Part shown: positions 15,410-30,115 of the stretch, one piece after another
How positions within the stretch are numbered: the stretch's first letter is position 1
How the letters are laid out: the number at the start of each line of letters is the position of its first letter
Virus record (IMG/VR): IMGVR_UViG_3300034954_000087
Location: 1-32,117 of that record
DNA from: a virus
DNA: 32,117 bases
Reading direction: 5' to 3' (one strand)
Program-made: the position numbers and the translations under genes
Notes under the pieces: generated by a model
Seen by the model: only the letters and a program-made list of their open reading frames with translations
Database searches by the model: none
What the model was told of the DNA's origin: nothing

Positions 15410-15551
15410 AATCGGGTGCCTTTAATTCTAACTTACGAATGTCATCGTGAAGTCGTTTAGTTGCGTGCAATTTTTCAATTGCTGCTTTTGCTTCAGGAGT
15501 TTCTTCCCACTCCCAAGTGTCACTACCGATAGTCTTTGATTTCTTTGTCAT
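15393..15551 (-). CDS. Small hypothetical protein (52 aa)
   Basis: A 52-aa helical, charged protein starting MTKKSKTIGSDTWEWEETPE. It is coupled to the oxygenase gene upstream by an ATGA overlap (15548-15551) and overlaps the next gene by 17 bases. Function unknown; the frame is the only open one across the gap. Confidence 0.55.
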   Translation of the reverse strand: MTKKSKTIGSDTWEWEETPEAKAAIEKLHATKRLHDDIRKLELKAPDYGVGK

Positions 15552-16222
15552 CGATGTTGTCCTGGTTGAGGTTGTCTAGGTTGAGGTTGCTGCCTTTGAG
15601 TTGGCATATGATCAAGGAACAGAGTGAATGAATAACGACCCCACCCATTTTCATAAGCAGCATCAGTATCCATCTTAATAGGATTGACCTGATGACGGTA
15701 CTGTCCAGGAAATAGGATAGCACAGTTGTTAGCAGTTTCAAACTTTACATCAGGAAAATCTGTAAAACTAAATTCACCACCTGTAAACTTTTTAGGTTCT
15801 TTCCAGACCCAGATGCACATTGTAGCAACATCTAGATCTCGATGAGGTTTGTAATAATCTTTATCTTCATAATAAGACACTAGGAATCCAGTCATCTGAG
15901 GAGCAAACTCATTGAAGAAATAGTTTGAGTCATGCTGAAAGACTTTTGGTCCGAAAATACCAGACGTAAATCTGCCAATAGGAGACTTCGCTTGAGTATA
16001 CACATGTTGTAAAAAGAATCCACCATTCTTTTTCATGGATTTGCCACTTGCATTTAGAGCACTGGCAGTTTCATTAGCATCTTCAAAGAAAACTTCTTTG
16101 CTTTTCTGATAAAAATCTAGTTCATCATAAATTAACTGCAACTCTTTATCTGTATACAGATTTTCCACATACACATATGGAAGAGGTGCGTTATACGATG
16201 TAACTTTCGCGTTTGGATTCAT
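15548..16222 (-). CDS. 2OG-Fe(II) oxygenase, prolyl-4-hydroxylase-like (224 aa)
   Basis: A non-heme iron dioxygenase-like protein. The metal triad is visible as H127 and D129 in YKPHRDLDVAT and H177 in GQYRHQVNPI; R196 in GRYSFTLFL is the likely 2-oxoglutarate ligand. GGEFSF (about 151-156) is the conserved strand between them. The C-terminus (about 207-224) is an odd Pro/Gln/Arg-rich tail (QRQQPQPRQPQPGQ). Substrate unknown; in this family it can be protein, small molecule or nucleic acid. It follows the tRNA cluster and precedes the fibre genes. The length is normal and all key residues are present, so it is probably active. Confidence 0.85.
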   Translation of the reverse strand: MNPNAKVTSYNAPLPYVYVENLYTDKELQLIYDELDFYQKSKEVFFEDANETASALNASGKSMKKNGGFFLQHVYTQAKSPIGRFTSGIFGPKVFQHDSNYFFNEFAPQMTGFLVSYYEDKDYYKPHRDLDVATMCIWVWKEPKKFTGGEFSFTDFPDVKFETANNCAILFPGQYRHQVNPIKMDTDAAYENGWGRYSFTLFLDHMPTQRQQPQPRQPQPGQHR

Positions 16223-20443: not shown

Positions 20444-21115
20444 TTATTTATTAAGGTATCCATTTTCCTCTAACCATTCACGGGTCATAGGTGTTGGTTC
20501 GTAATCAGTCCACATAGTTTTACGAGCACAAGATTCAAGTGCTTCTTGAGTCATATTCTCAGTTTTACCTGCCCAAGTTGCCTCTGCTTCCCATGGTTGT
20601 GCATGAGGTGGATATGTGCGCTTGACCAATTCTTTCCAGATCATAGGAACATCTTCTTCATTCCTAATGATTGCAATCATATTATTCTTAATAGTTCCTG
20701 CCATACAGTCTTGAGCGGCGTGCCATCCCTCATGTCTTACAACACTCATAAGAACATGTGGACGATGCACATATGTTCTATTGAGATAGAAGTGATTACT
20801 GACAGTATGATATACACCACGATGTCCTGCTGGAAAATACTTCTCATCAGCAAGATGAACATCTACACCAATCTGTGTAAAAGCAACCATGATTTTATCA
20901 AATTCATCGGAAACATAATCCCAATCAGAGTCGGGAAATGCTGCACGAAGATCACCTGAAGAATAAATTCTTTCTACTCCATCTGTACATTCTTTGAGCA
21001 ACATACAACCCATAGCATCCATGGTATAGTATCCTTTTGTAGGTTCTGCATTGACTGACATACCATGTGCCATGCCAAACATCAGTCCTGCAAAAATTGC
21101 ATTCCTAAGTTTCAT
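20444..21115 (-). CDS. Secreted HExxH metalloprotease-like protein (223 aa)
   Basis: A 223-aa protein with a signal peptide (basic MKLRNAIF, hydrophobic AGLMFGMAHGMSV, likely cleavage after NAE at about 24). The zinc motif HEGWH (128-132) stands in VVRHEGWHAAQDC; the third ligand could be E176 or E178 (PWEAEATWAG). There are several Cys residues (32, 38, 137 and one near 197), which fits an exported, disulfide-bonded protein. It would act in the periplasm or at the cell surface; the substrate is unknown. The start overlaps the stop of the upstream oxygenase-like gene (ATGA) and it precedes gp5. Metallopeptidases of this kind occur in cyanophages, but none has a role I can name. Confidence 0.7.
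   Translation of the reverse strand: MKLRNAIFAGLMFGMAHGMSVNAEPTKGYYTMDAMGCMLLKECTDGVERIYSSGDLRAAFPDSDWDYVSDEFDKIMVAFTQIGVDVHLADEKYFPAGHRGVYHTVSNHFYLNRTYVHRPHVLMSVVRHEGWHAAQDCMAGTIKNNMIAIIRNEEDVPMIWKELVKRTYPPHAQPWEAEATWAGKTENMTQEALESCARKTMWTDYEPTPMTREWLEENGYLNK
20445..20452 (-). promoter_or_regulatory. T4-type late promoter variant (AATAAATA) for gp5
   Basis: AATAAATA (7 of 8 matches) on the minus strand, overlapping the metalloprotease stop and 23 bases before the gp5 start. Confidence 0.6.
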
Positions 21116-21660
21116 CGATTTGCTCCTGAAAAATACGCTTTAGTTTCTGGTTCACCCATAATATTGAAGGATACGATTACTCGTTCTTTATCACTTTTAT
21201 TCATCGGACCTTCGTGAAGAAGATATGAAGGGAAGATAACTAAATCTCCTTCTTTCACAAAAGGTTGATATTCCATTAAATCTCCAGTTGCAGGATCATT
21301 AAACGGTGAGTAAAATTTTGTCGCTTCGTGTAGATTTGAATCGAATTCAACATATAATACTGCTGAAAAACCTACTGCACCGTGTTGATGAACGGGATGA
21401 TGATCATACTTTCTTGCTCTTTCACACCAGGCGTTTGATATAACTACTGGACATGGATAAGTTTGTTGAAAGTCTGCAACTTCTTCACTTACACAGTCAC
21501 TCAGTTCATCCAAATATGGAGGGACTTCGATGTCTCTTTTATAAGACATGAAGTCAGTATACTCTCCATTAGGGAGTTTGTCAACTAAAGTTTTTTTACG
21601 ATTTTTCCAGTCCCTAATTGAATAGTGTAATAAAGGAACTTCAAAAATAGGAAACAGCAT
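21112..21660 (-). CDS. 2OG-Fe(II) oxygenase-like protein (182 aa)
   Basis: A double-stranded beta-helix protein like the TIGR02466 group. Candidate ligands are H91 and H93 in HQHGAVGFSAVLYVEF and H149 in SYLLHEGPMN; the Arg in KERVIVSFNI (about 159) fits the 2-oxoglutarate contact. The GDLVIFPSYLLHEG strand (about 137-150) is characteristic. The substrate is unknown. It lies between tRNA-Val and the metalloprotease and is coupled to the latter. Confidence 0.75.
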   Translation of the reverse strand: MLFPIFEVPLLHYSIRDWKNRKKTLVDKLPNGEYTDFMSYKRDIEVPPYLDELSDCVSEEVADFQQTYPCPVVISNAWCERARKYDHHPVHQHGAVGFSAVLYVEFDSNLHEATKFYSPFNDPATGDLMEYQPFVKEGDLVIFPSYLLHEGPMNKSDKERVIVSFNIMGEPETKAYFSGANR

Positions 21661-21758: not shown

Positions 21759-22214
21759 TTACATCCTCGTAAAACGATATAGTTCTGTAGATCCCCATAC
21801 CATTTCACCAGTCTCTAAATCTATTCCTCGGTCACAAGTATGTAGTTTGTCACCATAACAATGAATTTCAGAGATAACTTTATCACCTCGATAACCGATG
21901 CAATTATCACCAGCGAGACAACCGTGCCATGCATCACCATCGAACGTAAAGATCATATCACAATCTTCGTGTCTTGTCCAGTCTAAGTGATAATTTTGCA
22001 TGACATATTCCGTATCGGATAATCTTAGAAGTTTATGATTCTTTTTCCGATACGGATCATTGGGTCCGTCTGCCCTTTTGTAATTCATCGATTGAAATCC
22101 TTCCTCATGGCGTTGCCATAGAATTTCTACGGATACCCATTCGGTAGGATTTGATTGTGCTTGATGTCTATTTGTCCAGTGTCCTAAAATGTAATCCTCA
22201 AGGTCAATCTTCAT
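21759..22214 (-). CDS. cpeT: CpeT-type phycobiliprotein lyase-like protein
   Basis: A 151-aa member of the CpeT/CpcT family, T-type lyases that attach or chaperone bilins on phycobiliproteins. The key signs are the spacing of FDGDAWHGCLAGDNCIGYRG (89-108) and the C-terminal EMVWGSTELYRFTR (138-151), matching the VWGxxxxYxF signature. The family is usually about 190-200 aa; this one is shorter, as in cyanophage homologues. It is a host-derived auxiliary gene and may keep light harvesting going, or change it, during infection (inference). It overlaps the preceding 75-aa gene by 11 bases and is followed by tRNA-Val. Confidence 0.85.
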   Translation of the reverse strand: MKIDLEDYILGHWTNRHQAQSNPTEWVSVEILWQRHEEGFQSMNYKRADGPNDPYRKKNHKLLRLSDTEYVMQNYHLDWTRHEDCDMIFTFDGDAWHGCLAGDNCIGYRGDKVISEIHCYGDKLHTCDRGIDLETGEMVWGSTELYRFTRM

Positions 22215-23836: not shown

Positions 23837-26647
23837 TCAGAGCAAACCTCTCAAAGTATTAGCCATTGAATTGAAACTTGATGCAGAACCCTTTCTAGTA
23901 GAACTACCACCACCTCCACCAGTAGGCATAAGTTTTGGAGATGGTGATCCTTTTGCCATTACTTGTGTAATCGCTTGCTTTGCAGCAGCGATTGCGCTAG
24001 CGTTCATACCGTTTTGTTGAGCAATTGCTTCTATAGCAGTATTTAATAGTGATGATGACTTTTCTTTTACAGTTCTCTGTGCTTCATTTCTTTGTTCTGT
24101 CTGTTGAACTAATTCCGAATTACTATTACCGATATCCGCTAAACCTGCTCTCTTTGCAGGCAGTATATTCATAGGAGAAACAGGAAGAACCTGTTGTTCA
24201 TTAGTTCTTTCTGTTACTGTAGATCCATCAGATCTTCTACCAGCTCCATCTGCATTGTCAGTTGCAATAGTTCCAGTGCTAACTCCTGTCATATCAGGTA
24301 CACCAGCAGCAGAAGGATTCGTCTTTCCATAAGCAATAGAACCTGGTCCAACAAACCAACCAAAGAAGTTGTTTGGCATGTTTTTCTTTCTTCTAACATC
24401 ACCTTTATCAAATCTTGGTCTCTCATTACCACCCATAAAGTCAGTTCTACCACCAACAAAATTGGCAGCATTCTTCTGAAGTGTTTTATTTTCTAACGCT
24501 TGAGCGACACGTTTCATATATGCAACAGATGTTCCTGATGCATGAGCAGCAGACTGAGCATCAGTAATACTATGCCATTCTTTATTGGGAATATTTTTTC
24601 TGCCTGGTCTTGGGAACTTCCATGTGGGTTCGTATTGACCTTTTGCTAGCAGAAGTTTTCTAATATCTTTTTCACCACCAGCATAAACACCAGACTTTGC
24701 TCTGTTATAAACTGATTGTGCAACGTCTGCCCATCCTTGAGGATCGCCATCCTCTGTTCCAGCAACAGCAGCAAGAGTCCAGAAAGGTGATCCCCTAGTT
24801 CCTTGTCTCTCTACAACCGATGTTCCTGCTCTTGCGCCACCCTTGTTAGGTTCAGAAGTGCTACTAGGTGCTGGCGGCGATGAACCATTTCCAGCACCAT
24901 CAAAGTCAAATCTATTTCCAGTCAAAGCATCTGCAAGACCTAATAAGGGATTCCATTGTGGTCTAGCATCTGAACCATCTTTACCATGTACTCCTGAAGG
25001 ATCCTTTGATGTAGTTGGACCCATTTGGGATTTGATCATATTACGGATCTTATTACCACCCGTATTTTTCTGATCTCCAGCATACAACCTATTCAAATCC
25101 CAACGGTAATGAGTTCCATTGTTTCTATGATACCAGTTTGGAAAGTCTCTATACTCTTCAGAGTGTGTTCTAACTCTCTTGTCAGTAATATCAGAACTCT
25201 TCCATCCCCATGCAGTAGCGATTGCTGCTGCTTCCTTTGCCATACCCTTCCATTGGGTTGATGTAATTGCTTGAGAACCCCAACTCTTATAATTCTCCTC
25301 ACTAGAGGTAGACATACCAGCAACACCAATTGCTGCAGATGTTCTCTTATCTCTACCATAAGTGTGGTGAGGAATTCCAGTTTGTCCAAACTTTGCTCTA
25401 CGAACTGGTTGACCACTAGAAGGAATATAAGTGTGATATCCATGTCCTTTGTAAAAATTGGTGCCATCACGATTTCCTGCACTCCAGTGTAAGAAAATTT
25501 TCTTTTTGTCGTTGGCACCCTGTGTAGCGTCATTTGCCTTGACCGCTTTCAGATAGTCTCCACCAACTGCCATTCCAGGTACATTATAACCAAGACTCTT
25601 TGCTTCACCAAGTCTTTTCTTGGTTAAGTTTGGTTGCGTTTTTGTTCCAGGAGTATTAAAAGGAACGACGAAAGCTCCCCCATTTGCCTTTCTAGCAACG
25701 TACTCAGTTCCATGTCCGATGAACGAAGTGGATCTCCCTCCATCCAATGAAACTCTATATCCCGATTGTGGTCCACTAATCCATCCTCCATTGGAAAGTT
25801 TGGGTGGTTTCTTAACATTACCACCCTGTGATTTTCCTTCAGGTTTGTCATTTGGATCTGGTTGTCCACCCGACCCATCAGCATTGAAGGATTCATAGAG
25901 TTTATATCCTCCGTATGCAACACCTGCTATTAGTCCTAGGGCTCCAGCTCTACCTAAGAGTCCCCTTCGACCTCTCACAAGGTTATTATACAGGAAAACT
26001 AGGACATTGCCAAAGTCTGTAATTAATCTAGTAGGATTACTCAACCAACGCAGACCAAGCATTAGTGTTCCTAATCCTGTTAGTCCTTGTACAAGTCCTC
26101 CAACTTTTTCCCAAGGACTTGATTCATCAGAAAATAAGGTGTATAATCCCTCAATAGTATTGACTACACCAAATTTTGCTACATCAAAAATAAATTTACC
26201 AATCTTTGCCATTGCGCCGAGAATATTCTCGACTTTCTTTTGGTTTTCAGGATTTGATAACCACTCCATTGCAGGAATGATGATGGCAGCTTTTAATAAA
26301 CCACCAAGCATATTCATCAAACCTTCCCACATATTGCCAACACCCTTGGCAACACCCGCAATCGCCCCTACAATATTACTTTTCTGTTTAGTAAAATATT
26401 TTGGTTCAAACTTCGGAGCATTTTTCTTTTCTGCTTCTAACTCCAGAAGTTGTATACTTTTAAGACTTGCAGTTATTGCTGCAATAGAATTTAAAGTTGC
26501 TCCTAAATTATTAACTGCTTGTGTATTAGTATTAATACTATTAGTTAATTCTGCTGTCTCAGGATTGGCTGCAGAAGAAACACTTGCTGACTTCACACCA
26601 ACAAACTTGTAAAAATTAATCTTTGTAGATTTTTGTATAGTTGCCAT
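23837..26647 (-). CDS. Tape-measure-like hub protein with two cell-wall hydrolase domains (936 aa)
   Basis: The N-terminal about 230 residues are hydrophobic/helical and share TGLGTLMLGLRWLSNPTRLI (about 186-205) with the 858-aa paralogue upstream. After a Gly/Pro linker comes an amidase (PGRP/Amidase_2-like) domain, about 380-525: H387 (LHWSAG), Y404-H405 (YHTYI), H495 (RTHSEEY) and D517 (RWDL) fit the Zn ligands and catalytic site. A second domain at about 620-745 looks like SleB/Hydrolase_2 (TLAAVAGTEDGDPQGWADVA, then VYNRAKSGVYAG), with E631 as the likely acid. The tail (about 850-936) is Ala/Ser/Gly-rich. It probably digests host peptidoglycan on DNA entry. It starts at once after the 858-aa stop. 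Confidence 0.75.
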   Translation of the reverse strand: MATIQKSTKINFYKFVGVKSASVSSAANPETAELTNSINTNTQAVNNLGATLNSIAAITASLKSIQLLELEAEKKNAPKFEPKYFTKQKSNIVGAIAGVAKGVGNMWEGLMNMLGGLLKAAIIIPAMEWLSNPENQKKVENILGAMAKIGKFIFDVAKFGVVNTIEGLYTLFSDESSPWEKVGGLVQGLTGLGTLMLGLRWLSNPTRLITDFGNVLVFLYNNLVRGRRGLLGRAGALGLIAGVAYGGYKLYESFNADGSGGQPDPNDKPEGKSQGGNVKKPPKLSNGGWISGPQSGYRVSLDGGRSTSFIGHGTEYVARKANGGAFVVPFNTPGTKTQPNLTKKRLGEAKSLGYNVPGMAVGGDYLKAVKANDATQGANDKKKIFLHWSAGNRDGTNFYKGHGYHTYIPSSGQPVRRAKFGQTGIPHHTYGRDKRTSAAIGVAGMSTSSEENYKSWGSQAITSTQWKGMAKEAAAIATAWGWKSSDITDKRVRTHSEEYRDFPNWYHRNNGTHYRWDLNRLYAGDQKNTGGNKIRNMIKSQMGPTTSKDPSGVHGKDGSDARPQWNPLLGLADALTGNRFDFDGAGNGSSPPAPSSTSEPNKGGARAGTSVVERQGTRGSPFWTLAAVAGTEDGDPQGWADVAQSVYNRAKSGVYAGGEKDIRKLLLAKGQYEPTWKFPRPGRKNIPNKEWHSITDAQSAAHASGTSVAYMKRVAQALENKTLQKNAANFVGGRTDFMGGNERPRFDKGDVRRKKNMPNNFFGWFVGPGSIAYGKTNPSAAGVPDMTGVSTGTIATDNADGAGRRSDGSTVTERTNEQQVLPVSPMNILPAKRAGLADIGNSNSELVQQTEQRNEAQRTVKEKSSSLLNTAIEAIAQQNGMNASAIAAAKQAITQVMAKGSPSPKLMPTGGGGGSSTRKGSASSFNSMANTLRGLL

Positions 26648-29224
26648 TTACTGTTGTCTTTGTGTCAGTGCAGTAGTAACGCCAGTTACAATGGGTTGTG
26701 AATTATTTATGGGCACTGCTGTAGGAATAGGAACAAGTTTGTCAATAATCATAGGTACAGGAACAAATTCTAATACCTGTTGCATAGCATATTGTGCAGA
26801 GAATGATTGTTCTCCACTCAACATCTGTTTACCACTATCAACAGCACCACTGATCATTTCTGGTTGAACACCCAAGGTAGATGCAATTTCATTAGTTGCA
26901 CCACCGACCATTGACTTAAATATACCCGACATTCCGAATTGATCAGCAAGATTATTAACCATATCCATAGGATTAAATCCGCCGCTCAAAAATCCTCCTG
27001 CCATCTGTCCTAAACCAGGATTGATCATACCAAGACCTGTGCTTAGAGCACCACCAAAGTTACCACCCAACAATGAACTACCAATCTGACCAAGTGGACC
27101 CTGCATAAAGTTACTAAATGCACCAGTGATAGAACCCATTCCAGGAATCATCCCCAGTGCAGACATAGGATTGCCCCCAGCAAACATGTTGATGCCTGCC
27201 ATGATAGGAGCAGCACCAGGAATAAATGATGCAGCAGTTTGAACAAGAGGATTACTTGCAACCTTGCTGACTACATTCTTAACACCACTGAATGCTTTCT
27301 TAGCACCCTTTACAATACCACCAATGAACATTGGTTGTTCCGCATTAGGATCAGTGCTAGATTCACCATCGTTACGTTGATCTTCTTCATTCTTATTACC
27401 CGTAATGAAATTGATGATTTCACCAATATTAGGTAACTTAGATAAGATATTATCAATACCATCTTTTAATCCTCTTGCTCCAACCTTATCAACAACTGCT
27501 TCTTCACCTTCTTGCAGTTGAGGAACAAAGTCACGAACAAACATATATCCGTCCATGAGCATTGATAAGACGCTCGTAGCACCACCTGTAGCAAGACCGA
27601 ATACATCTAAGATACCAGAAGTACCTTCAATCAATGCACCAATAGAGTCACCTGATGCAGCACGTTCATAAGCAAATGCAAGGTTTACAAGACCACCAAC
27701 AACAGGTAAAATCGCTGCTGCTCTTTTTCCTAACTTACTACCCGCTTGTGCAATATCACCAAAACTACCAATACCTTTCTTCTTAAGAATCTCCAGTCCC
27801 TTGTCTATGCCAGGAATCTTCATCAGAAGATCCATCAATGCTTGTCCAATCTGTGCTGCTTTCTTACCAATCGGTTCGATGATTGGTCTTAAAGGTTCAA
27901 TGACTTTCTGCAACACAAAGTTCTTTGTGCCAGTCGCCATTTTATTGAAGAATGCCTTTCCTCCGTCAGCAACCCAATTAGTAGCTGCCTTAAATTTATC
28001 TCCAGCAGCAGATGCCCAACTTTGTCCTTTAGCAGCAATTGCTTCACCCGCTTTAACAGTATTTTCCCAACCTGCTTTAGCTGCTTTCGATAAGTTAGTA
28101 TATTGTTCACCTGCCCATGCAGGTAATCCTTTTAATCCTCTATGAAGTTGTCCAAGACCACTCTTTGCTAGATCAACACCAGCATCAAATGTACCAGTAA
28201 GAAAATTTCCAAGTCGTTGTAATCTACTTGGTTTTGGTGGTTTTATTGGTTTTAATTTAAGTCTCTTCCACGCCTTCAGTGCTTTTGCTGCATCACCACC
28301 AGAATTTGATAATGCATTAGCATATGCTCTCGCAGCATCATCACCATACTCTGCAAGAATCTTCTTATATTGTTTTGCTGCTGCTTCACCAAACTGATCA
28401 GCAACAGTAGATGCCTTTACTCTACCTCTAGGACCATCTAAATCGGGATCTGCTCCAGATGGATTTGTTTGTGTAGGTTTTGTTCTTGGGGGATCACCAT
28501 CACCCCTAGGTTTTGTTCTAGGAGGTTTATCTCCTGCACCACCAAGTAAATCAACCAGTCCTAAAATATCAGTAATAAGACTGAATGGATTCATCAGGTA
28601 CTTTAACCCGATGATACCTGTCATCAGTGTGCCAAGACCACCTAACTTCGTTAGGAAGTCACCTTCTGGGTCTACTAATGCACTAAATCCGTCTAGAATA
28701 TTCTGGGTGAATCCTGATGCCCAACCAAATAGTTTATCAAATACGAATTGTGCTTTTTCTAAAAATGTTACGAGTTTAGTTATATTTTCTTCGTCACTAA
28801 ACCACTCCAAGGTTTCTTTGGTAATGGCAAACAAACCAATATTCATTAATATGTTGCCAAGGGGTTGTAAAAAACTACTAACCCACCCAAAAGGACTGTT
28901 TTTCTTTCCTACTAGTTTCTTTGTTTTAGTTTTTCCTTGTGAGGTTACCTTCCCCTTTTTAACTTTATTAAGTTCTTGTGCCTCTTCGGCAGCAGCGTCT
29001 GCTTCTCTCTGTTTTCTACGACGCTCTAGTATCGCCCTTTTCTTATCATCTTTGATACGCAGAAGAGCGATCTTTTCAAGATCTGAAACAACTACACCAA
29101 TGCTACTTACAGTACTTCCTAATCTATTAAATGCAAGCGTTTGTGTTCTAGCTGCAGTGACTGCCGAAGAAGCAGTCTTTGCTCCTCCAGGATTTACAAA
29201 TTTGTATGTTTGTAGTTTAGCCAC
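26648..29224 (-). CDS. Tape-measure / hub protein, gp29-like (858 aa)
   Basis: A long helical, Ala/Gly-rich protein. After MAKLQTYKFVNPGGAKTASS, a charged coiled-coil stretch (about 45-105: LLRIKDDKKRAILERRRKQR) and hydrophobic helices, GLGTLMTGIIGLKYLMNPFS (about 194-213) matches the 936-aa paralogue. Pro/Lys linkers at about 230-260 and 350-480 separate further helical segments. The C-terminal third is repetitive hydrophobic Gly/Met/Leu. Position and style suggest the T4 gp29 tape measure (590 aa), longer here. The GTG start (29222-29224) overlaps the end of the frameshift frame by 8 bases. No enzyme motif seen. Confidence 0.65.
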   Translation of the reverse strand: MAKLQTYKFVNPGGAKTASSAVTAARTQTLAFNRLGSTVSSIGVVVSDLEKIALLRIKDDKKRAILERRRKQREADAAAEEAQELNKVKKGKVTSQGKTKTKKLVGKKNSPFGWVSSFLQPLGNILMNIGLFAITKETLEWFSDEENITKLVTFLEKAQFVFDKLFGWASGFTQNILDGFSALVDPEGDFLTKLGGLGTLMTGIIGLKYLMNPFSLITDILGLVDLLGGAGDKPPRTKPRGDGDPPRTKPTQTNPSGADPDLDGPRGRVKASTVADQFGEAAAKQYKKILAEYGDDAARAYANALSNSGGDAAKALKAWKRLKLKPIKPPKPSRLQRLGNFLTGTFDAGVDLAKSGLGQLHRGLKGLPAWAGEQYTNLSKAAKAGWENTVKAGEAIAAKGQSWASAAGDKFKAATNWVADGGKAFFNKMATGTKNFVLQKVIEPLRPIIEPIGKKAAQIGQALMDLLMKIPGIDKGLEILKKKGIGSFGDIAQAGSKLGKRAAAILPVVGGLVNLAFAYERAASGDSIGALIEGTSGILDVFGLATGGATSVLSMLMDGYMFVRDFVPQLQEGEEAVVDKVGARGLKDGIDNILSKLPNIGEIINFITGNKNEEDQRNDGESSTDPNAEQPMFIGGIVKGAKKAFSGVKNVVSKVASNPLVQTAASFIPGAAPIMAGINMFAGGNPMSALGMIPGMGSITGAFSNFMQGPLGQIGSSLLGGNFGGALSTGLGMINPGLGQMAGGFLSGGFNPMDMVNNLADQFGMSGIFKSMVGGATNEIASTLGVQPEMISGAVDSGKQMLSGEQSFSAQYAMQQVLEFVPVPMIIDKLVPIPTAVPINNSQPIVTGVTTALTQRQQ
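26704..26711 (-). promoter_or_regulatory. Possible late promoter inside the 858-aa gene
   Basis: CATAAATA (7 of 8) on the minus strand near the end of the 858-aa gene, 57 bases before the 936-aa gene start. It is inside coding sequence, so a chance match is possible. Confidence 0.35.
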
Positions 29225-29411
29225 CTTTTGCTTGTTGCTCCTTCATTCTACGTTCTTCCTCTTTTAGGAATGCCACCAGCATATTCACATAGATTTCCTT
29301 TTCCCATGGCATCAGATTATCGATATGTTCGATATTCCATTTATGATGATGCATCAGTGAAAAGTTACCTTCATAGTAAGAACGGAGATTCTGGTGAAGA
29401 AGGGCTATGCG
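29217..29411 (-). CDS. Tail-assembly-chaperone-like extension, -1 frame of the gp26-like gene
   Basis: An open frame without its own start that continues the gp26-like protein after a -1 shift. It begins RIALLHQNLRSYYEGNF, then MHHHKWNIEHIDNLMPWEKE and ends EEERRMKEQQAKGG (64 residues after the shared Phe-Phe). The MHHHKW...MPWE pattern looks like the short W-containing extensions made by frameshifting in tail-chaperone genes. With the shift the product is about 299 aa. The only in-frame ATG (29352-29354) would give 45 aa, so independent translation is less attractive. The end overlaps the 858-aa GTG start by 8 bases. It may play the role of T4 gp51, the hub assembly catalyst (inference). Confidence 0.65.
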   Translation of the reverse strand, partial: RIALLHQNLRSYYEGNFSLMHHHKWNIEHIDNLMPWEKEIYVNMLVAFLKEEERRMKEQQAKGG

Positions 29412-30115
29412 AAAAAACTCGCTAGACCTTCAAGTTTGATTTCATTTTCCTTTCCTGTATTAGGATTGGTTACTTTTAAGGTATGAGACAACTTGGGCAT
29501 AGTTTCAAAGAACTTTTGAATTTCTCCAAACTGCTTGCTATTCAGTTGTTCAAACCATTCAGTCAATTCTTGCTTGGAAAGATCCTTGCAATCATAGATT
29601 TGATTTTCATCAGCAATTGTTTTTACACAAGATGCTGCCATATCAAAGACTTGCTGAAGTTGATCACCATCTTCTTGGAAATTCATCTTAACAAAGGTAT
29701 TCAAGTCAGGATAACCCATCGTAAGAATAACAGTGTCATCTAATTTGATTTCTGGTTTGTGACCTCGGGTTTTCTTTACTTTGATTTCATCCAAAGGAAT
29801 AGAAACCTTGACTTCAGTCTCCTCATCATCAGGACATACTACATTCACTTCAACATTTTCACCTACAGACTTGGTGCGAATTTGTAAGAATACATATTCA
29901 ATATCAAATGTTGACAGTGTTCTGACATCACTAATGTCAGTACATGCTTTGATGATTTCACTAATCGCGTTAACGATATCTTCTTGCTCACCCGTTTCAG
30001 TTGCGAGGAGAAGAAGTTTTTCTTCTTTTACTAGAAATGGTCTGTAAGTGACTGTTCTATTATCAGAAGGCAACTTCAATTTGTACTTAGGTACAGTTAG
30101 CTTGGGTAATGCCAT
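29405..30115 (-). CDS. 26: Baseplate hub subunit, gp26 family (236 aa)
   Basis: A 236-aa protein of the T4_baseplate family (T4 gp26 is 208 aa). It begins MALPKLTVPKYKLKLPSDNR followed by the signature YRPFLVKEEKLLLLATETGE (24-43). The N-terminal part is a beta/helix domain; the C-terminal helices end LEGLASFFA. A perfect late promoter (30143-30150) precedes it. The stop overlaps a slippery TTTTTTC, from which the ribosome can pass into the -1 frame. Two products, long and short, are therefore predicted, as for lambda G and GT. Confidence 0.85.
   Translation of the reverse strand: MALPKLTVPKYKLKLPSDNRTVTYRPFLVKEEKLLLLATETGEQEDIVNAISEIIKACTDISDVRTLSTFDIEYVFLQIRTKSVGENVEVNVVCPDDEETEVKVSIPLDEIKVKKTRGHKPEIKLDDTVILTMGYPDLNTFVKMNFQEDGDQLQQVFDMAASCVKTIADENQIYDCKDLSKQELTEWFEQLNSKQFGEIQKFFETMPKLSHTLKVTNPNTGKENEIKLEGLASFFA
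29411..29417 (-). other. -1 ribosomal frameshift site (T TTT TTC)
   Basis: Minus-strand slippery heptamer T TTT TTC in the correct phase: codons AGT TTT TTC GCA TAG in frame zero become TTT TTT CGC in the -1 frame. A GAAGG Shine-Dalgarno-like box lies 9 bases upstream. A CCTTC/GAAGG stem could form starting 7 bases downstream. All three fit known bacterial -1 signals. Confidence 0.7.

Follow-up and report, generated by a model that had tools for sequence, protein, structure and literature searches.

In phage T4, the two forms of the tail assembly chaperone (TAC) are said to be encoded by the separate genes 26 and 51, and frameshifting is reportedly kept in several T4-like groups. Atkins et al. 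(2016) noted broad conservation of G-T frameshifting among long-tailed phages, "except T4" (PMC5009743). As cited in later papers, Vladimirov, Gautam and Davidson (2022, Virology 566:9-15) reported that TAC-N genes of T4-like phages contain poly-T signals for -1 frameshifting (cited in PMC12846349), and that a short gene accompanies a fused one in some of these phages (cited in PMC10885494). Here, we describe a gp26/gp51 locus in IMG/VR virus record IMGVR_UViG_3300034954_000087, positions 1 to 32,117; this whole stretch of 32,117 nucleotides is referred to as the window. From sequence comparison, we consider it highly probable that programmed -1 frameshifting at the end of the gp26-like gene yields both TAC-N (gp26) and TAC-NC (a gp26-51 fusion), as in lambda G/GT. 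A first-pass annotation of the window had proposed such a fusion, and it remained the best-supported reading, with the slippery heptamer and both frames conserved.

On the minus strand, the 3' end of the gp26-like open reading frame reads CTA GCG AGT TTT TTC GCA TAG, in which the phase of T_TTT_TTC suits -1 slippage by two tRNAs. After the shift, the codons are CGC ATA GCC CTT and so on, up to a TAA that ends at 29217. The first ATG of this -1 frame is codon 20 (29354), and no start codon precedes it. The next gene starts with GTG at 29224, and the -1 extension overlaps it by 8 nt. The gene end, the heptamer and its phase, the 64-codon frame without an initial start (29411..29217) and the GAAGG box upstream (29431-29427) were thus all located as first annotated. 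The features of the junction are as follows.

29405..30115, minus strand: gp26-like gene, the TAC-N or short "G" form; a 236-aa open reading frame with matches to PF12322 and phrog_150 and a structural match of its AlphaFold model.
29411..29417, minus strand: slippery heptamer T_TTT_TTC, conserved in close and distant relatives.
29405..29407, minus strand: zero-frame stop TAG of the short form, one sense codon (GCA) past the heptamer.
29217..29411, minus strand: -1 extension, the TAC-C or "T" domain; 64 codons plus TAA, matching phrog_634 and annotated as gp51 in relatives.
29427..29431, minus strand: GAAGG, a Shine-Dalgarno (SD)-like box and probable stimulator, 9 nt upstream of the heptamer; mostly GAGGG in relatives.
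29403-29399 and 29372-29368, minus strand: possible weak stem CCUUC/GAAGG, beginning 7 nt past the heptamer.
29217..29354, minus strand: frame from a possible internal start, ATG 29354; a stand-alone gp51 of ~45 aa according to annotators of relatives.

TTTTTTC is not rare in the AT-rich window, with 7 copies observed versus 12.8 expected from shuffles, so the case for this site rests on conservation. Two IMG/VR scans returned 160 loci, 133 of them distinct and with complete reading frames. TTTTTTCG was found at the same place in 160/160 loci. The extension lay in the -1 frame in all 159 loci where it was detected; the remaining locus ends just past the junction. The heptamer T_TTT_TTC was invariant in 133/133 distinct close relatives, and the conservation of TTTTTTC together with both frames, on which the initial proposal had been made to depend, was confirmed in these loci. 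Among 81 degenerate codon columns conserved in residue, only two showed zero synonymous variation, namely the Phe codons TTT TTC of the heptamer. In these genes, Phe is encoded by TTC, its minor codon, in 28% of cases. The codon before this pair was AGT, TCT, GCT, AAT or GGT; its residue varies and its final T is constant.

A T run present in all relatives, with T7 in some, would also be expected if the -1 product arose from slippage of RNA polymerase on the T6 run and not from the ribosome. We judge this origin extremely improbable, because the C after T6 was kept in 133/133 near relatives even though TTT is the commoner Phe codon. The T6 run is also shorter than the runs that strong cases of bacterial transcriptional slippage usually need. 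In addition, the sequence upstream fits ribosomal stimulation. The Glu codon in the SD-like box was GAG in 109/133 sequences versus 28% elsewhere in the same genes; the nominal p-value of 1e-38 for this enrichment is overstated, because the sequences are related. Mean anti-SD duplex energy at the box was -6.72 kcal/mol, compared with -5.49 kcal/mol for synonymous shuffles and -1.66 kcal/mol for other windows of the same genes. The GAG enrichment therefore results in stronger anti-SD pairing than synonymous expectation. The window itself carries the rarer GAAGG form of the box.

In the databases, Syn33, S-PM2 and other phages are annotated with gp51 as a separate gene, in Syn33 from an internal ATG equivalent to window position 29354. 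Under such an arrangement, ribosomes would begin gp51 at an internal start of its own (ATG 29354), or reinitiate after terminating gp26, and no fusion would form. The sequences of the close relatives make this very unlikely. In all 133 sequences, the -1 frame holds no ATG, GTG or TTG from its last stop up to the shift point. The first candidate start inside the extension is at codon 20 in 62/133 and at codons ranging from 2 to 34 in the others. Extension residues R1, L9, N16 and F17 were invariant among the 133 distinct sequences, and H6 and Y12 nearly so. Before extension codon 17, variation was 0.32 and 0.28 at codon positions 1 and 2 and 0.55 at position 3. At the protein level, the 19 codons before ATG 29354 are thus conserved, and the window's clade offers no start for them; the extension cannot begin by itself there. 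A stand-alone gp51 from ATG 29354 as the main product is probably a mis-annotation, because these 19 conserved codons would be dropped. Internal initiation also leaves the absolute synonymous constraint on the heptamer codons unexplained.

The heptamer was kept over a wider range of phages. When gp26 of Sinorhizobium phage phiN3 served as the query, the scan added 78 loci, including 47 distinct ones with a complete junction. These carried TTTTTTC (39/47) or TTTTTTT (8/47), and the -1 extension was open in 47/47. Although the zero-frame stop lay 0, 1, 2, 3 or 8 codons past the heptamer, the register between heptamer and extension was constant. A separate gp51 does not account for this register where the gp26 stop shifts by 3-8 codons. 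TTTTTTC was also present in KVP40, nt-1, Marzo, IG49, Desulfovibrio phage SRB7757 and S-PM2, and the heptamer variants were TTTTTTG in phiM9 and T7 in pf16, phiN3 and Melnitz-2.

Several observations weigh against programmed frameshifting as the source of gp51. An ATG overlaps the gp26 stop in KVP40, nt-1, Marzo and two Sinorhizobium phages (phiN3 and phiM9), which could therefore make gp51 separately. In Synechococcus phage S-SCSM1 (L179:2205-2245), the heptamer is intact, but ~11 extra nt follow the gp26 stop and the extension is in the +1 frame. No fusion can form by -1 slippage in this phage, unless the sequence is wrong; either the frameshift was lost naturally or the assembly is in error. 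Downstream RNA structure in the window's clade was not above synonymous-codon expectation (mean z -0.41). Two routes might also operate together, so that an internal or overlapping start would yield a free T domain alongside the frameshift fusion. The ATG at codon 20 in the window would fit this, as would the ATG over the stop in KVP40, nt-1 and Marzo, whose heptamers are intact. We consider such a combination unlikely, because the internal ATG of the near clade comes after 19 conserved codons and the first start falls anywhere from codon 2 to 34 in other relatives.

With frameshifting as the preferred reading, the SD-like box is the probable stimulator in the window's clade. The window junction folded at -10.8 kcal/mol, with a z of -1.63 against dinucleotide shuffles. 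The 5-bp stem suggested in the first-pass annotation does pair and begins 7 nt past the heptamer, but it was not supported by the near-clade comparison described above. On the same z value, we rejected for this clade a general stimulatory role of a pseudoknot or stem downstream of the site. The clade with 50-58% identity (L100-L159) showed extra structure just past the site, with a mean z of -2.82 against synonymous codons. A selected hairpin of the type GGUCC-AUAU-GGACC, found in that clade only and located 10-24 nt past the heptamer, accounts for part of it. All 5 bp pair in 27/56 distinct sequences and in none when the position is slid by 1-3, and the hairpin has compensatory third-position changes. 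S-PM2 has a different stem of ~13 bp downstream of its heptamer.

In Ackermannviridae (L169:2139-2190, L170, L192-L195), gp26 ends in A_ATT_TTC or G_GTT_TTC without a T6 run. A conserved open -1 extension with MPWH follows gp26 and frequently lacks an annotation. In Aglimvirinae, the stop overlaps an ATG (TAATG). The corresponding sequence in Kuttervirus and Taipeivirus is TAATT, and an AUU start or a weak slip is therefore possible in these two genera.

The protein families agree with the two parts of the proposed fusion. The 236-aa gp26-like protein matched Pfam PF12322 (T4_baseplate, E=4.8e-77), which is the T4 gp26 family, and phrog_150 of PHROGs (baseplate hub, E=2.7e-89). The -1 extension matched phrog_634, "baseplate hub assembly catalyst", i.e., gp51 (E=1.6e-30). 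A Pfam HaeIII match of the extension (E 0.021, below cut-off) was discarded as chance. The extension was present in 547 phage records, chiefly from Synechococcus and Prochlorococcus phages, and in most of these the match begins at its first post-shift residue. Best identity to phage records reached 94% for the extension and 78% for gp26.

An AlphaFold model of the window's gp26, built with 58 relatives, had a pLDDT of 86.6. VIA-align ranked the HK97 tail assembly chaperone (2ob9) first, with Z 7.0 and an rmsd of 4.3 over 83 residues, within residues 1-84 of gp26. It was followed by yqbN (3klu, Z 6.1), which we take to be a prophage protein of the same kind as phage tail assembly chaperones, and by a PICI-like element protein (Z 3.9), with unrelated structures at 2.2. 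The matches are limited to residues 1-86 of gp26, and these Z values are modest. Foldseek alone gave no significant match in the PDB, with the HK97 chaperone at rank 9 (E 2.2), and PDB sequence searches with the gp26 profile and with T4 gp51 returned no relatives. The fold matches of the predicted structure are consistent with gp26 being TAC-N.

T4 provides a natural counterpart of the fusion. T4 gp51 (249 aa) matched PF12322 over residues 1-201 (E=3.9e-52) and the extension family phrog_634 over residues 147-246 (E=1.2e-23), and T4 gp26 and gp51 were 20% identical over 161 columns. By sequence, T4 gp51 is a paralogue of gp26 that carries a gp26-like domain and the same C-terminal extension. 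Because gp51 matches both families and aligns with gp26, T4 appears to have one gene for each form, gp26 being the short and gp51 the long one. The suspected link between the extension and T4 gp51 therefore held, since phrog_634 matches both, and genes 26 and 51 are separate in T4, as also noted at first pass. That T4 gp51 is naturally a fusion is a further point against a stand-alone gp51 in the window. Earlier authors had noted that cyanophage gp51 is without the first ~200 residues of T4 gp51 (PMC3037559). These residues would be absent because the frameshift supplies them as the gp26 fusion.

In the mechanism we propose, most ribosomes would stop at TAG and release the 236-aa gp26 (TAC-N). 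The SD-like box 9 nt upstream of the heptamer probably slows some ribosomes and may thereby stimulate slippage. We infer both a slip of one base backward with two tRNA-Phe on T_TTT_TTC and its efficiency. Slipped ribosomes would add 64 codons, giving a 299-aa gp26-gp51 fusion (TAC-NC). If the two products act as lambda gpG and gpGT do, their common N-terminal region would bind the tape measure, and tail tube protein would be brought in by the C-terminal domain. Both chaperone parts would leave before tail completion, again as in lambda.

The neighboring genes include a tail-tube-like gene (phrog_45) directly upstream of the gp26-like gene. The next gene (26648-29224, minus strand, 858 aa) is "endolysin" in PHROGs and has no Pfam match. 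This gene and that at 23837-26647 (minus strand, also after gp51) matched overlapping PHROG families, endolysin or unknown, with no Pfam domain in either. One or the other might be the tape measure gene. Host-derived metabolic genes were also found among the tail genes, coding for a CpeT-like antenna protein and two 2OG-Fe(II) oxygenases (21759-22214, 21112-21660 and 15548-16222, minus strand).

Herein, the arrangement for a frameshifted TAC is real and very strongly conserved, but it is already published in kind for T4-like phages. The first-pass annotation knew of no description of it in T4-like cyanophages. Open-literature searches found no paper describing a frameshift at the gp26/gp51 locus in cyanophages, while the principle itself had been published for T4-like phages. 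Our results suggest that the N-terminus of cyanophage gp51 is incorrect in many database entries, the protein being the C-terminal part of a gp26 fusion. They favor the view of gp26 and gp51 as tail assembly chaperones over that of components of the baseplate hub. Hundreds of cyanophage sequences with their uniform T6C site also offer a natural data set on -1 frameshifting in cyanobacterial hosts. More tentatively, T4-like and Ackermann-type phages could together present a complete range of routes to the same pair of proteins, an idea that we regard as possible but doubtful. The range would run from a frameshift only (cyanophages, including the window), through a frameshift site with an overlapping ATG (KVP40, Marzo and the Sinorhizobium phages) and, where no good slippery site exists, an overlapping ATG or perhaps an AUU start (Ackermannviridae), to duplicated genes (T4). 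Stimulators would be lineage-specific, either an SD-like box or a selected downstream hairpin, and some lineages may truly have switched from frameshifting to initiation.

Among known systems, the HK97 tail assembly chaperone 2ob9 is the best structural match to the predicted gp26; it differs in sequence (8% identity), and gp26 has an extra C-terminal part without a match. T4 shares the Pfam family of the window's gp26, and its gp51 carries the same extension, but T4 has two genes on opposite strands with no slippery site at the end of gp26. The T4-like tail assembly chaperones of Vladimirov et al. come from the same kind of locus (T4 gp26/gp51) with poly-T -1 signals; as far as the papers citing that work allow a judgment, the window shows no essential difference from them. 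Lambda gpG/gpGT differs from the window phage, which has a contractile T4-type tail and another slippery heptamer, but lambda likewise makes a short product and a low-level -1 fusion (PMC5009743).

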